DNA from: Methylococcaceae bacterium
GTDB taxonomy: Bacteria > Pseudomonadota > Gammaproteobacteria > Methylococcales > Methylomonadaceae
NCBI GenBank assembly: GCA_012965425.1
Contig: DTSI01000154.1
Coordinates: 1 to 46,868, forward strand
Direction of reading: 5' to 3'
DNA length: 46,868 nucleotides
The notes below the pieces were generated by a model. That model saw only the letters and a program-made list of their open reading frames with translations, did not search any database and was not told where the DNA came from. Position numbers and translations under genes: made by a program. This document shows positions 35,949 through 46,839 of this stretch, piece after piece; within the stretch, counting starts at the first letter, position 1, and each line of letters starts with the position of its first letter.

Positions 35949-36941
35949 TCAAATTGTTAAAACAATTTTTCCTTGCGTATGTCCTGCCTCAATAATCGCA
36001 TGTGCACCCAGACCTTCTGCTAAAGAAAAAACCTCACTCACTTCAATAACCAATTGACCTGCCAGCATATACTCAGCACATCGCTGTAGAATAGCAACCT
36101 GCTCATCGCGCGCTTCTGATAAATTTCTTAGCATGGGTGTCAGCATCAACTCAAAAGCGATACTAAGATTACGCATTCTAGCTTCCTGAAAGTCAAAAAC
36201 ACCGGGATCTAAAATAGAAACTAAGGTGCCAAAATGTGCCGTCATTGTAATTGACGGCAAAAAGACATCTCGACCCACCGTGTCAAATACTAAATCAGCA
36301 CCCCGTCCTAACGTCAATGCTAACAACCGTTCAAGCGTATCTTCGGTGGGGTAAATAATAACCTCATCGGCACCCAAATTTCTGACAAATTGCTCTTTCT
36401 CAGAACTTGAAACCGTTGTGATGACGCGCGCACCCCGTAATTTCGCCAATTGAATAGCAACGTGTCCAACCCCCCCCGCACCGCCATGAATTAAAACAGT
36501 TTGACCCGCTTGTAATCGACCGCGATTATAAAGCGCTCCCCAAGCGGTAATTAACACCAAAGGTGCCGCTGCTGCCTCGATATAACTGGCATTACTGGGC
36601 ATAGTCGCTAACCACCGTTCATCGACCACATTAACAGGCGCATAATTACCTTGCTCTAACCCAAGGCCACCATGACAAAACCACACCTTATCTCCGGGTT
36701 TATAACGACTCACACTGGCGCCCACTTCAACCACTTCTCCTGCACCATCGCAACCTAAAATAACCGGAAAACGATCACCCTGTAACAAGCCGCCTCGCCT
36801 TATTTTAGTATCAATGGGATTAACACCGGCAGCATATAATTTTATTTTAACCTCCGATGGCTGCCTAATCACTGGCTCATCCACCTGTTGTAATTGCAAC
36901 ACCTCTGGTTCGCCGACTCTTGTCATCATTAATGCTTTCAT
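35949..36941 (-). CDS. Quinone-oxidoreductase-like MDR protein
   Basis: Medium-chain dehydrogenase/reductase of the NADPH:quinone reductase subgroup, probably zinc-free. The 330-residue protein begins MKALMMTRVGEPEVLQLQQV, has the substrate-domain motif AAGVNPIDTKIR and GCDGAGEVVEVG, and a Rossmann fold with VLIHGGAGGVGHVAIQLAKLRGA. Substrate is unknown. GAGGA lies 7 bases before the ATG at 36941. It follows the NspC-like gene by 10 bp, so the two are probably cotranscribed; a functional link is only guessed. Confidence 0.88.
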   Translation of the reverse strand: MKALMMTRVGEPEVLQLQQVDEPVIRQPSEVKIKLYAAGVNPIDTKIRRGGLLQGDRFPVILGCDGAGEVVEVGASVSRYKPGDKVWFCHGGLGLEQGNYAPVNVVDERWLATMPSNASYIEAAAAPLVLITAWGALYNRGRLQAGQTVLIHGGAGGVGHVAIQLAKLRGARVITTVSSSEKEQFVRNLGADEVIIYPTEDTLERLLALTLGRGADLVFDTVGRDVFLPSITMTAHFGTLVSILDPGVFDFQEARMRNLSIAFELMLTPMLRNLSEARDEQVAILQRCAEYMLAGQLVIEVSEVFSLAEGLGAHAIIEAGHTQGKIVLTI

Positions 36942-36951
36942 CACTCTTCCT

Positions 36952-38088
36952 CTAGGTTAACCACTGCTCACGATAATGTGCATAATCATAGGTTTTAATT
37001 TTACGCACTGTCGAGTCATCAAAGGTATAAATATCAGGAAAATTATACCCATTAAAGCGGTTTGACTTAATCAAGCTATACGCTCCAACATGACTAAAGG
37101 TAACCCGATCACCGACGTTAATTGGCTTATTAAAACGATACTCACCAAAAATATCACCGGCCAGACAGGTACAACCCACCAAGATAGCACTGTGTTCCCC
37201 AGTTAAAACTTCCTCAATTAACAGCGGTTTTCTCTGGTATTCAAACACCTCAGGATTATGATTTACGGAGGTATCTAAAACAGCCACAGTTTTACCTTCC
37301 CGTAGAAAACAGTCAATCACGGTTGCCACTAAAAATCCTGCCGCCCCCACAATACCGTTACCGGGTTCAATAAAAACATCTAATGCGTATTGCCGTTTAA
37401 TCTGCGTAACCAAATCGATCAGCGGTGCAATCTGTTCTTCAGAATCAAACAAATAACCACCGCCTAAATTAATCCATTTCAACGCTCGTAATGATGCACT
37501 GAACTGCGCCTCAATTTTTGCCATAGTCTGTTGCAACGGCTGAAAAGAATGGCTACCAAACAAAGTATGAAAATGAAGTCCCTCAATACCCTCGGGGAGT
37601 TGTGCTGATAATTGACTTAAGGGAACCCCTAATTTTGAGAACGCCCGACACGGGTCATAACGATTATCCTCCACAAAAGAAAGTTCAGGGTTTACTCTGA
37701 GCCCCGGCGAAAAATCTTCTTTTAAAAATGGCTTAAATTGTCGGTATTGCTCTAAAGAATTAAAACTAATTGCCGTAGACAGTGTCGCTAACGCATCAAA
37801 CTCGTCCACTTTTAAGCCCGGAGTTGTCACATGGAGGTCAGCTCTGCCCGAAGCGACCTCACGAGCTAAACGCAATTCAAATAACGAACTCACAGAAAAA
37901 CCATCCACAACGGTTAAGGTTTGTTTCATGACTGCTGTTAATGGCAAAGACTTAATTGAAAATAGAACCTTACACTGACTTCTTTGCTTCAATAGCCGCA
38001 AATAATGAAGGGTCTGACTAACCTTATCCTTATCAATCAAAAAAGCCGGTGTTGATTGTGGGATATCTTTTATCTCATGTGCCTGCAC
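36952..38088 (-). CDS. Divergent carboxynorspermidine decarboxylase-like PLP enzyme (NspC-like)
   Basis: Fold-type III PLP decarboxylase most like carboxynorspermidine/carboxyspermidine decarboxylase (last step of an alternative spermidine route). Seen: TPAFLIDKDKV, K46 in FSIKSLPL as the PLP lysine, HFH at 172-174, GGG at 209-211, EPGNG at 241-245 and GCTCLAGDIFGEY at 305-317, with its conserved Cys308. From memory, canonical members read EPGEA and SSEAHMPD where this protein has EPGNG and SVNHNPEV, so substrate could differ. Start is GTG overlapping the preceding stop as TAGTG. No partner dehydrogenase is nearby. Confidence 0.75.
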   Translation of the reverse strand: MQAHEIKDIPQSTPAFLIDKDKVSQTLHYLRLLKQRSQCKVLFSIKSLPLTAVMKQTLTVVDGFSVSSLFELRLAREVASGRADLHVTTPGLKVDEFDALATLSTAISFNSLEQYRQFKPFLKEDFSPGLRVNPELSFVEDNRYDPCRAFSKLGVPLSQLSAQLPEGIEGLHFHTLFGSHSFQPLQQTMAKIEAQFSASLRALKWINLGGGYLFDSEEQIAPLIDLVTQIKRQYALDVFIEPGNGIVGAAGFLVATVIDCFLREGKTVAVLDTSVNHNPEVFEYQRKPLLIEEVLTGEHSAILVGCTCLAGDIFGEYRFNKPINVGDRVTFSHVGAYSLIKSNRFNGYNFPDIYTFDDSTVRKIKTYDYAHYREQWLT

Positions 38089-38696
38089 TAAAATGATGAC
38101 TCCCGGTGATAAATAGCTGATTGGGTAAAAACAAAATCCATCGCCACATCCGTTTCCTCCATAGGAATAAAATCGAAGAGTTGCGACTCAAAACAAACCC
38201 CCTGCAGAATTGTACTGCCGCAAACCTGCTGCAAGAAATTATCATAATAACCTTGCCCATTACCCAGCCGACCTCCTCGGCGGTCAAACCCTACACCCGG
38301 CACTATAATGACCTCTAGTTCTTCAATGCCGACCTGCTTCTCGGGCTCATACCAGCGATTCTCAGGAGGCTCTAAAATACCCCACCGGCCACTTACTAAT
38401 TCTGAAAAATCACGCAATTGCCATAACCCTAACTGATTCTGCCCGTGATCATCTTGGGTACAGTAAGGAATCACAATACGTCGCCCTTGGCTCAACTCTT
38501 GTTTTATGATTGTTTGCGTTCTAACCTCTGAGCGACAACCCACATACCACATAACTGTCTTGGCACATTGGTAACTCGGCTGCTCAATGACTTTCTGACA
38601 AATCAGCTGACTCAAAAAATCTTTATCACTTTGTTTATTACGTTTGTCATAAGCGTCTACCCGAACTGTATTTTTATCTATTGACGACTGACGCAT
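38088..38696 (-). CDS. 5-formyltetrahydrofolate cyclo-ligase
   Basis: Recycles 5-formyl-THF to 5,10-methenyl-THF with ATP in one-carbon metabolism (YgfA/MTHFS family). The 202-residue protein carries the diagnostic VPGVGFDRRGGRLGNGQGYYDNFL, preceded by GILEPP, and the basic N-terminal segment. The rest of the protein is less conserved, as usual. The stop overlaps the GTG of the NspC-like gene by one base, so they are coupled. In many relatives a 6S RNA gene lies just upstream; here only 31 bp separate it from copA. Confidence 0.93.
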   Translation of the reverse strand: MRQSSIDKNTVRVDAYDKRNKQSDKDFLSQLICQKVIEQPSYQCAKTVMWYVGCRSEVRTQTIIKQELSQGRRIVIPYCTQDDHGQNQLGLWQLRDFSELVSGRWGILEPPENRWYEPEKQVGIEELEVIIVPGVGFDRRGGRLGNGQGYYDNFLQQVCGSTILQGVCFESQLFDFIPMEETDVAMDFVFTQSAIYHRESSF

Positions 38697-44847: not shown

Positions 44848-46839
44848 TTAATCAGTAACAAATAAGGCATCAATAAAATCCTTTGCATTAAACGCCTGCA
44901 AATCGTCAATGCCCTCGCCGATACCAATAAAACGAATGGGAATGCCTAATTGTTTCGCTAACGCAAAGACTACACCCCCTTTAGCCGTACCATCCAACTT
45001 AGTCAAGGTAATACCGGTCACCGTCATCGCCTCATTAAACTGTTTAGCCTGAACCACTGCATTTTGTCCCGTCCCTGCATCTAATACCAACATCACCTCA
45101 TGCGGGGCCGACGCATCTAATTTCCCCATAATGCGTTTAACTTTAATTAATTCTTCCATTAAATTTGCTTTGGTATGAAGTCTTCCCGCCGTATCGGCAA
45201 TCAATACATCCACACCTTTAGCCTTGGCAGACTGCAATCCATCATAAATAACTGAGGCTGAATCAGCCCCGGTTTGTTGTGCGATCACAGGGATTTCATT
45301 ACGCTCGCCCCAGGCTTGAAGCTGCTCTACGGCAGCGGCCCTAAAAGTATCACCGGCCGCTAACATGACACTGTGTCCTTGTGCCTGTAATCGTTTAGCC
45401 ATTTTACCAATGGTTGTCGTTTTACCGGCCCCATTAATTCCAACCACTAGAATAACAAAAGGGCCTGTTTGTTTCGGAATAATCAACGGCTGAGAGTACG
45501 GTTCTAAAATGGCTAACAATTGCTGTTTTAATAAATCAACACCATCGACTTGACCGTCAGCAGCTATTACGGTGGTTAACTGCGCCATAATACTGGTCGT
45601 CACCTCCATACCAACATCAGCCATAATTAAATGTGTTTCAATTTCCTCTAATAAATCATCATCAATTTTCTTCTGACCCAGCGCAAGACTGGCCAGTAAT
45701 CCACCCAACCCCGAGCGGGTTCGTTTTAACTGCGATTTTAATCGTAAATCACGGGTCGTAGAATCTGGCTCAAGATAAACATCCCGTACGACCACCGAGT
45801 CAGTTGCCGTTTCAAGCTCAACGACACCGCCTTTGGCCACCACACCTTCCGACTCTCCTGTTAAACCATATTTACAATAAAAACTCAGTCGAATTAATAA
45901 CAGCATCAATAACGCTGCGACCCCATTATGGGAAATCGCACTCCACATGGGTAAATTCATTCTAACGTTAGCAACGCCCAAACAAATCTGTAGCAAAAGT
46001 AAAGCACTTAACCAAACAGCACTTTTACGAACCAATCGTGGATAACGTCCAGAGGAAGCAATGAACATAACCATTGTCAAGACGATGAAAGTCACCAATG
46101 CACCGACCCGATGCATCCAATGTGCTGCAATCTTACCCTCGGCTGATAACGGCTCCGTATTACCGGTAATAAGTCCTTGGACTAAATTACCAGCTTCCTT
46201 ATAATCACCGACTGGCCACCAAGAATTATTACATTGCGGAAAACCTTCACAGGCCAATGCAGCGTAATTCGTACTGGTCCAACCCCCCAGAATTATCTGC
46301 AGAAACAATACCAGCATCGCAAATTGCGCTAACCGTCGAGGCCCTTGGATATGCTCTCTTCGTTCAATATCTGGACCGGTCTGTAGGAAAAACCGATATA
46401 ACAACCAACAGGTCATCATCCCTAAGAGTAGGTGACTGGTAACGACAATCGGCATCACTTTCATGGTGACTGTCCACATGCCTAAGGCCGCCTGAAAACC
46501 CACTAACAACAACAAACCAAATGAACAAGACATCGCCATGAGACGATGCGGTTTTTGGCGCCAAGCAATTAAATTCATCAACAGGATAAGGATTCCTAAG
46601 GCCCCTGCCACATAGCGGTGAATCATCTCTTTCCAGGCTTTACCTTTATCGAAAAAGACATCTGGAAAAGCTTCTCTGGCTTGTTTAATAAAGTCCGGGG
46701 TTTCACTAATAACAGGGGAACCAAAACACCCCGGCCAATCGGGACAACCCAGGCCAGCATCCGACAAGCGTACATACGCACCTAAAACAATGACCACTAA
46801 AACTAAAAGCAGACTAAGGGATATTAATTTTCTAAACAT
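44848..46839 (-). CDS. Heme A synthase (CtaA/COX15) fused in frame to SRP receptor FtsY
   Basis: One uninterrupted 663-codon frame encodes two complete proteins. Residues 1-322 are heme A synthase, which oxidises heme O to heme A for cytochrome aa3 oxidase: eight membrane helices, H74, H136, H243 and H304 as heme/substrate ligands (plus H240), and loop cysteine pairs C32/C38 (GLGCPDWPGCFG) and C197/C203. Residues about 366-663 are FtsY, the GTPase receptor for signal recognition particle: membrane-targeting helix RTRSGLGGLL, N domain KIDDDLLEEIE, P-loop GINGAGKT (467-474), DTFRAAA, DTAGR and TKLDGTAKGG. The linker (323-365) is acidic, perhaps a short A domain. Both termini of CtaA are cytoplasmic in the family, so the fusion is topologically sensible. 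A T5 run at 45879-45883 could hide an indel. Confidence 0.85.
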   Translation of the reverse strand: MFRKLISLSLLLVLVVIVLGAYVRLSDAGLGCPDWPGCFGSPVISETPDFIKQAREAFPDVFFDKGKAWKEMIHRYVAGALGILILLMNLIAWRQKPHRLMAMSCSFGLLLLVGFQAALGMWTVTMKVMPIVVTSHLLLGMMTCWLLYRFFLQTGPDIERREHIQGPRRLAQFAMLVLFLQIILGGWTSTNYAALACEGFPQCNNSWWPVGDYKEAGNLVQGLITGNTEPLSAEGKIAAHWMHRVGALVTFIVLTMVMFIASSGRYPRLVRKSAVWLSALLLLQICLGVANVRMNLPMWSAISHNGVAALLMLLLIRLSFYCKYGLTGESEGVVAKGGVVELETATDSVVVRDVYLEPDSTTRDLRLKSQLKRTRSGLGGLLASLALGQKKIDDDLLEEIETHLIMADVGMEVTTSIMAQLTTVIAADGQVDGVDLLKQQLLAILEPYSQPLIIPKQTGPFVILVVGINGAGKTTTIGKMAKRLQAQGHSVMLAAGDTFRAAAVEQLQAWGERNEIPVIAQQTGADSASVIYDGLQSAKAKGVDVLIADTAGRLHTKANLMEELIKVKRIMGKLDASAPHEVMLVLDAGTGQNAVVQAKQFNEAMTVTGITLTKLDGTAKGGVVFALAKQLGIPIRFIGIGEGIDDLQAFNAKDFIDALFVTD
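45838..45864 (-). promoter_or_regulatory. Possible internal ribosome-binding site and GTG start for separate FtsY
   Basis: On the minus strand ACAGGAGAG and GGAAGGT precede two in-frame GTG codons at 45843 and 45840 (residues 333 and 334 of the fused frame). Initiation here would give a 330-331-residue FtsY. AGGAG is 11 bases from the first GTG and GGAAGG about 4 from the second. These purines also encode protein, so chance is possible. Confidence 0.4.

Follow-up and report, generated by a model that had tools for sequence, protein, structure and literature searches.

A Conserved Clade of NspC-Like Decarboxylases without the Dehydrogenase Partner in Methane-Oxidizing Methylococcales

The Decarboxylase Gene and Its Neighbors

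The window, by which we mean the whole stretch of 46,868 nucleotides analyzed here, carries on its reverse strand a gene for an NspC-like pyridoxal phosphate (PLP) decarboxylase of fold type III (table 1). The preliminary description had placed the ORF exactly, and the two neighbors it had named, a 5-formyltetrahydrofolate cyclo-ligase and an MDR oxidoreductase, are borne out by ORF positions and family matches. Compared with three congeners, the gene has evolved under purifying selection (dN 0.11–0.12, dS 1.1–1.25, dN/dS about 0.1) and therefore is not a chance ORF.

Table 1. Genes of the locus and active-site residues of the decarboxylase, in window coordinates
Feature	Position	Strand	Observation
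NspC-like PLP fold-III decarboxylase	36952..38088	(-)	378 aa, GTG start
5-formyltetrahydrofolate cyclo-ligase	38088..38696	(-)	Family match; its stop and the decarboxylase start share one base (TAGTG)
MDR oxidoreductase	35949..36944	(-)	ADH_N and ADH_zinc_N; PIG3-like, under the PIG3 model cut-off; 7 bases past the decarboxylase stop
Lys46, Schiff-base lysine (9eaf Lys43; role from PMC11866407)	37951..37953	(-)	Lys in 88/88 clade and 23/23 canonical rows
Arg143 (9eaf 139), active-site flap	37660..37662	(-)	Arg in 88/88 clade rows; canonical Leu 20, Ile 2, Lys 1 (n = 23)
His174..Phe177	37558..37569	(-)	PLP-stacking His kept; Phe for 9eaf Cys173
EPGN (241–244)	37357..37368	(-)	Fourth residue Lys 67, Asn 18, Ser 2, gap 1 (n = 88); canonical Glu 11, Ser 6, Gly 6
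NHNPE (276–280), specificity helix	37249..37263	(-)	One-residue deletion; Glu280 for 9eaf Asp276
CLAGD (308–312)	37153..37167	(-)	9eaf Cys306 kept, then Leu as in CASDC
RFN (344–346)	37051..37059	(-)	Arg344 (9eaf 342) in 86/88 clade and 0/23 canonical rows; adjoins 9eaf 343–344, which enter the partner active site

Of the 78 decarboxylase loci that have a neighbor on the side in question, only 32 have the cyclo-ligase as the next gene upstream and only 38 the MDR oxidoreductase as the next gene downstream. The two neighbors are thus no strong clue to function, and the neighborhood was dropped as a functional guide. A gene of the MtdB type lies at most four genes from the decarboxylase in 21 of 81 loci (80 loci and the window). 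In L042, L046, L048–L050, and others, two adjoining genes of this type (methylene-H4MPT dehydrogenase) are found near the decarboxylase, and the L042 copy matches PF09176. Several Methylomonas loci adjoin genes that we take to be of the mutL/miaA type. No recurring polyamine gene was seen among the few neighbors run against Pfam. Elsewhere in the window (44848–46839, reverse strand), a 663-aa frame presumably combines heme A synthase (CtaA) and FtsY, either as a true fusion or through a lost stop.

Family Placement and Active-Site Residues

The best NCBIfam match of the decarboxylase is nspC (TIGR01047, an equivalog model), with 280.8 bits, under a curated cut-off of 409.05. This cut-off is strict: 32 of the 100 matched genomes (own included) score lower, and among the ones tested of these 32, seven have the usual dehydrogenase partner of NspC, carboxyspermidine dehydrogenase (CASDH). 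Against 12 clade members, the NspC model gives a best E value of 4.6e-90. The scores with the LysA model (TIGR01048, 78.5 bits) and the FslC/FigC model (NF041039, 21 bits) are below the respective cut-offs of 297.9 and 500; a separate LysA is encoded in the window genome (536.8 bits). The solved relatives found by sequence are 9eaf, 3n29, 3mt1, and 36gy, with profile scores of 319, 290, 255, and 245 bits, respectively. The AlphaFold2 monomer model (pLDDT 83.4, pTM 0.83) has 9eaf as its best structural match (Foldseek E value 2.8e-36; Z 40.1, rmsd 2.9 over 360 residues); its segments 277–285 and 340–345, with pLDDT below 50, are the least certain and are also those that hold the key pocket changes. 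The best matches by both fold and sequence are therefore carboxyspermidine and carboxynorspermidine decarboxylases (CASDC/CANSDC; 9eaf, 3n29, 3mt1).

In a 59-row maximum-likelihood tree, a single clade (support 97/95) unites the 29 rows from methanotrophs (the window, 21 of the 80 loci, and seven more). The 21 canonical rows form their own clade (99/99), without any methanotroph row. The canonical clade includes 9eaf, 3n29, and the plasmid copies of Sinorhizobium meliloti and Paracoccus denitrificans; 3mt1 and 36gy were left out of the tree. Four fusion proteins constitute a third clade (100/99). The root is weak (69/80) and joins the fusion group to the outgroup, which calls for a long-branch warning. 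The window protein lies outside the canonical clade and, hence, outside the group of characterized enzymes. The divergence proposed in the preliminary description is thus upheld, both by this separate clade and by the 281 bits obtained against a cut-off of 409.

The four fusions (L108:1422-3158, L109:2475-4247, L110:6534-8285, and L111:1909-3684; 578–591 aa) share with the window enzyme a Glu for Asp276, the one-residue deletion, an Asn at 271, and the lack of a detected CASDH. They differ by a region of some 200 aa at the N terminus that contains a cysteine-rich motif and matches PF03692 in L109 and, below the cut-off, in L108, and by a Thr at 240, a Gln and not an Arg at 342, and their separate clade. 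In L108, L110, and L111, the fusion gene adjoins a gene for a protein of about 1,100 aa, which in L108 has protein kinase and FGE-sulfatase domains.

In 9eaf, roles have been assigned to Lys43, His170, Cys173, Glu237, Gly239, Glu240, Asp276, Cys306, and Tyr335; residues 132–142 form the active-site flap, and residues 306–308 and 343–344 of the partner subunit lie in the active site (PMC11866407). We counted residues at the corresponding positions in 88 methanotroph rows (the window, the 80 loci kept of 564 confirmed loci, and seven more) and in 23 canonical rows. The catalytic and PLP residues of CASDC (Lys43, His170, Glu237, Gly239, Cys306, and Tyr335) are each present in 87 or 88 of the 88 rows, the lone miss being a gap. 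The window enzyme also resembles CASDC/CANSDC in fold, length, its EPG motif, the conserved Tyr and FNG, and the acid of the specificity helix. All the motifs said to be kept were recovered: the PLP lysine Lys46, HFH (172–174), GGG (209–211), and CLAGD (308–312). The residue after the catalytic Cys is Leu in 86 of the 88 rows (Lys and a gap in one each). According to PMC7857480, lysine/ornithine (L/ODC), arginine (ADC), and diaminopimelate (DAPDC) decarboxylases have an Asp directly after this Cys; the window decarboxylase has none.

The clade departs from the canonical enzymes at several pocket positions. The position of 9eaf Cys173, a residue of the water network at the PLP phosphate in CASDC (PMC11866407), is occupied by Phe in 86 rows and by Tyr and Cys in one each, versus Cys in all 23 canonical rows. 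In the flap, the invariant Arg143 is accompanied in 88/88 rows by Asp141, for which canonical enzymes have mostly Thr, Gln, Phe, or His. The residue equivalent to 9eaf Arg148 (Lys152 in the window) is Lys in 88/88 clade rows and Arg in 23/23 canonical ones. One residue is missing before 9eaf His273 in all 88 clade rows, of which L176 is cut off there. At the position of Asp276, whose role in the specificity helix is known from PMC11866407, Glu is found in 84 rows, Gln in two, Arg in one, and a gap in one; all 23 canonical rows have Asp. As judged from the alignment, the differences separating the two groups are F177, D141/R143/K152, N276 with the deletion, E280, and R344. In three natural variants, L128, L135, and L161, the helix acid is replaced (by Gln, Gln, and Arg, respectively), and L128 also has Gln for Arg344.

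Two of these regions had been compared earlier with the Campylobacter enzyme. The letters given for it, EPGEA and SSEAHMPD, are correct according to the alignment with 3n29, and the window reads EPGNG and SVNHNPEV. However, EPGNG alone is no mark of divergence, because position 240 varies among canonical enzymes (Glu in only 11 of 23, table 1). For the second motif, the letters do differ, but the aligned acid is retained as Glu280 after the one-residue deletion. The Cys-to-Phe replacement near the PLP-stacking His, the invariant flap Arg, and Arg344 are better clade markers than EPGNG.

Distribution, the Dehydrogenase Partner, and Polyamine Routes

Strong homologs were identified in 38 of 61 genomes (own and 60 relatives), 37 of them full length with at least 370 bits; that of G011 (155 bits) is cut by a contig end. 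The carriers belong to three family codes: f1 (31 of 37 genomes), f4 (6 of 6), and f5 (1 of 1). No homolog was found in the 17 genomes of f2, f3, f6, f7, and f8 or in the f1 genomes G001, G008, G012, G025, G029, and G031, of which G001 and G008 are only 65% and 77% complete, the other four being nearly so. Among 398 genomes sampled across the phylum, no further clade genome was recognized; five other matches, below 350 bits, were aligned. The 80 loci come from methanotroph genera, Methylococcales, Methylococcaceae, methane-oxidizing endosymbionts, or records titled Gammaproteobacteria or proteobacterium, with at least 48% identity, and include cultured carriers such as Methylotuvimicrobium buryatense 5G and Methylomonas sp. 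LW13. Among the matches listed, the nearest homologs are those of the Methylococcales MAGs OPU3_GD_OMZ (81% identity) and ETNP20_MAG_37 (79%), whose names point to oxygen-minimum zones. Mobile copies were not encountered: there was no plasmid match of at least 60% identity among the 40 matches listed of 150 records, and no such phage match in six records.

A gene for methane/ammonia monooxygenase A (PF02461, 416 bits) is present in the window genome. Together with the homologs in Methylococcales methanotrophs, this identifies it as a methanotroph genome. PF02461 is present in 33 of the 38 carriers and also in 18 of the 23 noncarriers; the decarboxylase is therefore not required for methane oxidation, and a tie to methane oxidation as such was rejected.

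We searched for CASDH with a profile, A1, based on the products of four genes that adjoin canonical nspC in S. meliloti, P. denitrificans, Paenibacillus, and Leisingera. There was no match anywhere in the window genome (2.32 Mb, 99.77% complete), in keeping with the earlier statement that the decarboxylase is without its dehydrogenase. No full-length CASDH was detected by A1 in any of the 61 genomes, hence in none of the 38 carriers; two of these, G014 and G024, have partial, weak matches of 44 and 19 bits. As a positive control, A1 was run on 30 genomes out of the 100 that the nspC model had matched. Among the 25 with NspC at the canonical level (at least 350 bits), 24 have a CASDH of at least 500 bits, the exception being G149, and in 22 of these 24 it lies within 3 kb of nspC. 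In five genomes with lower NspC scores (203–263 bits; 65–90% complete), A1 found no CASDH. As the profile recovers CASDH in 24 of the 25 control genomes, its absence from the carriers is unlikely to reflect a blind spot.

In the window genome, PF03435 has two proteins over the cut-off and four more matches below it, and we considered both of the former as a hidden CASDH. The first, L003, has both Sacchrp_dh domains, but its PDB matches are 3abi (the closest), 3ic5, 5l78, and 5l76, none of which is named CASDH. Its sole match among the 60 relatives, of 21 bits in G042, shows that it is not the partner of the clade, and for the same reason it looks acquired. The second, L004, was rejected since it is without the C-terminal domain. 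The saccharopine-dehydrogenase-like gene (L003:694-2988; G000:C22) adjoins a gene for a 390-aa protein without Pfam match.

For the polyamine background of the carriers, presence lists were compiled by hand from the profile-search tables. Fisher tests were disregarded, since the relatedness of the genomes deprives them of independence. We call SpeA-like a PF02784 match of about 126–158 bits in a frame of at least 539 aa (370 aa in G045), which is not a SpeA model, and strong SpeE a PF01564 match of at least 160 bits. Among the 61 genomes, 40 have a SpeA-like protein (among the matches listed), 45 SpeD, and 41 a strong SpeE; none has a fold-I OKR decarboxylase over the cut-off, and there are four weak matches. 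SpeA-like matches are found in 30 of the 38 carriers, and SpeA-like, SpeD, and strong SpeE together in 29 (both counts among the matches listed), so that these 29 do not need a second spermidine route. Conversely, five carriers that are 94–99% complete (G002, G004, G006, G024, and G040) have no SpeA-like protein (among the matches listed), SpeD, strong SpeE, or full-length CASDH, in a search confined to four families and the CASDH profile. Weaker spermine-synthase-domain matches remain in the five (best 42 to 65 bits), and G006 has one further fold-III decarboxylase (145 bits). The gene therefore persists without the polyamine routes searched for. Nine genomes have SpeA-like, SpeD, and strong SpeE (among the matches listed) and are without the NspC-like decarboxylase. 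With the route in 29 carriers and not in five, and with these nine genomes, the gene neither replaces nor requires the known route.

The window genome has no SpeA-like protein among the PF02784 matches listed and no OKR decarboxylase. Its two PF02784 matches are LysA and a protein taken to be the NspC-like decarboxylase. On one contig (L251; G000:C122:47344-51117), a short SpeD-like protein (135 aa) is encoded together with a frame of 581 aa in which a spermine-synthase domain is recognized. The former is a candidate SpeD-derived ornithine or arginine decarboxylase of the kind presented in PMC10407285.

Proposed Activity of the Methanotroph Clade

The methanotroph enzymes are a conserved subfamily of a known decarboxylase family and are orphans, that is, without CASDH. 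In our judgment, they are probably homodimeric PLP decarboxylases of amino acids, with the alanine-racemase fold and with the ancestry and chemistry of CASDC/CANSDC, that have moved to another substrate, one not fed by CASDH. PLP-dependent decarboxylation itself is very likely because the core is conserved. Lys46 would hold PLP, His174 would stack on its ring, and Glu241 would bind the ring nitrogen. The α-amino group of the substrate would displace Lys46, and the α-carboxylate would leave as CO2. Reprotonation would be aided by Cys308, contributed by the partner subunit. Since the specificity helix retains its acid, the substrate presumably has a distal amine, which would meet Glu280. Two added, near-invariant arginines, one in the flap (Arg143) and one next to residues 345–346 of the partner subunit (Arg344), are expected to make the pocket more basic; the substrate would for this reason probably also bear a negative group, a carboxylate or a phosphate.

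Decarboxylases of citryl substrates provide a parallel. Relative to CASDC/CANSDC, the window enzyme combines its separate clade, its score below the NspC cut-off, and a genome in which no CASDH was found with Phe for Cys173, Glu for Asp276 after a one-residue deletion, and Arg in the flap and at position 342 (9eaf numbering). In the fold-III enzymes FigC and SbnH, basic residues lie deep in the pocket (PMC7857480); SbnH has one in the loop of Arg344 as well. The N-citrylornithine decarboxylase FslC/FigC (7kh2) shares the superfamily, the fold, and such a residue (Arg387), but lacks the specificity-helix acid, and its Cys is followed by Met (PMC7857480); its profile match to the window enzyme is weak (78 bits). 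SbnH of staphyloferrin B synthesis (6knh, 6knk) has the same fold and a profile match of 91 bits. Its His379, in the loop after the conserved Tyr, is 4.2 Å from the distal carboxylate (PMC7857480). We dropped the equivalence of Arg344 with SbnH His379 or FigC Arg387, as Arg344 is placed two residues after His379 in the profile alignment, so that these two share only the loop. As far as shown here, the likeness of the window enzyme to SbnH lies in the fold and the loop and does not take in SbnH Lys347 and Arg304. The parallel of Arg143 and Arg344 with these pockets is thus an analogy, not proof. A plasmid protein, L252, considered as a bridge to SbnH, was discarded; its best matches are LysA and BtrK.

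That the substrate might have changed had been raised in the preliminary description; the separate clade, the clade-specific pocket residues, and the absence of CASDH support this suggestion, and the change itself is what we infer from them. It is unlikely, though worth weighing, that the enzyme still decarboxylates carboxyspermidine or carboxynorspermidine. The carboxy-polyamine would then be taken up or come from an enzyme unrelated to CASDH, such as a reductase from a different family or a transferase that moves the 3-amino-3-carboxypropyl group from S-adenosylmethionine onto a diamine. The closest relatives by sequence and fold are indeed CASDC/CANSDC, and an MDR oxidoreductase is directly downstream in 38 of 78 loci. 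With a different acid in place of Asp276 and the Cys-Leu pair retained, both as in CASDC, the enzyme may still act on a carboxypolyamine-like compound. According to Li et al. 2025, CASDC contributes little to specificity, which is controlled by CASDH (PMC11999265). From this it follows that the pocket changes need not alter the physiological substrate and that the decarboxylase might accept carboxyspermidine in vitro. G149, a genome of the canonical clade also without detected CASDH, likewise counts against a change of substrate. However, the 29 carriers with SpeA-like, SpeD, and strong SpeE need no second spermidine route and five carriers have none of these, and Arg143 and Arg344 have no evident use on a purely basic substrate.

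Less probable still is that the enzyme closes a gap in the synthesis of diamines or lysine by acting on ornithine, lysine, arginine, or diaminopimelate. This would suit the window genome, with neither a SpeA-like (among the matches listed) nor a fold-I OKR decarboxylase match, but this genome has its separate LysA (537 bits), and a missing putrescine maker is not what 30 of the 38 carriers, with a SpeA-like match already (among the matches listed), would call for. Although the partner gene was not found, a decaying NspC remnant without function is very improbable given the retained PLP and catalytic residues, the dN/dS of about 0.1, and the presence of the gene in three family codes (f1 31/37, f4 6/6, f5 1/1). 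We return to a changed substrate and, more tentatively, propose that the methanotroph clade may represent a new activity of the alanine-racemase fold, decarboxylating an amino acid whose distal amine is accompanied by an acidic group, within a pathway that would be independent of both known spermidine routes and, as part of the same tentative reading, widely kept in two families of methane-oxidizing Methylococcales.

In the literature covered, which excludes most subscription journals, no title or abstract opening among the matches listed dealt with a methanotroph NspC-like enzyme. By their best model match, these genes would pass for norspermidine or spermidine synthesis in methanotrophs. As its first enzyme, CASDH, was not found in the carriers, this pathway cannot operate in them in its known form. 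Conserved in three family codes and altered in its pocket, the decarboxylase points instead to an undescribed amine of organisms that restrict the release of methane. The cultured carriers make direct testing feasible, and the clade-specific residues constitute a short list for testing how this fold changes its substrate.
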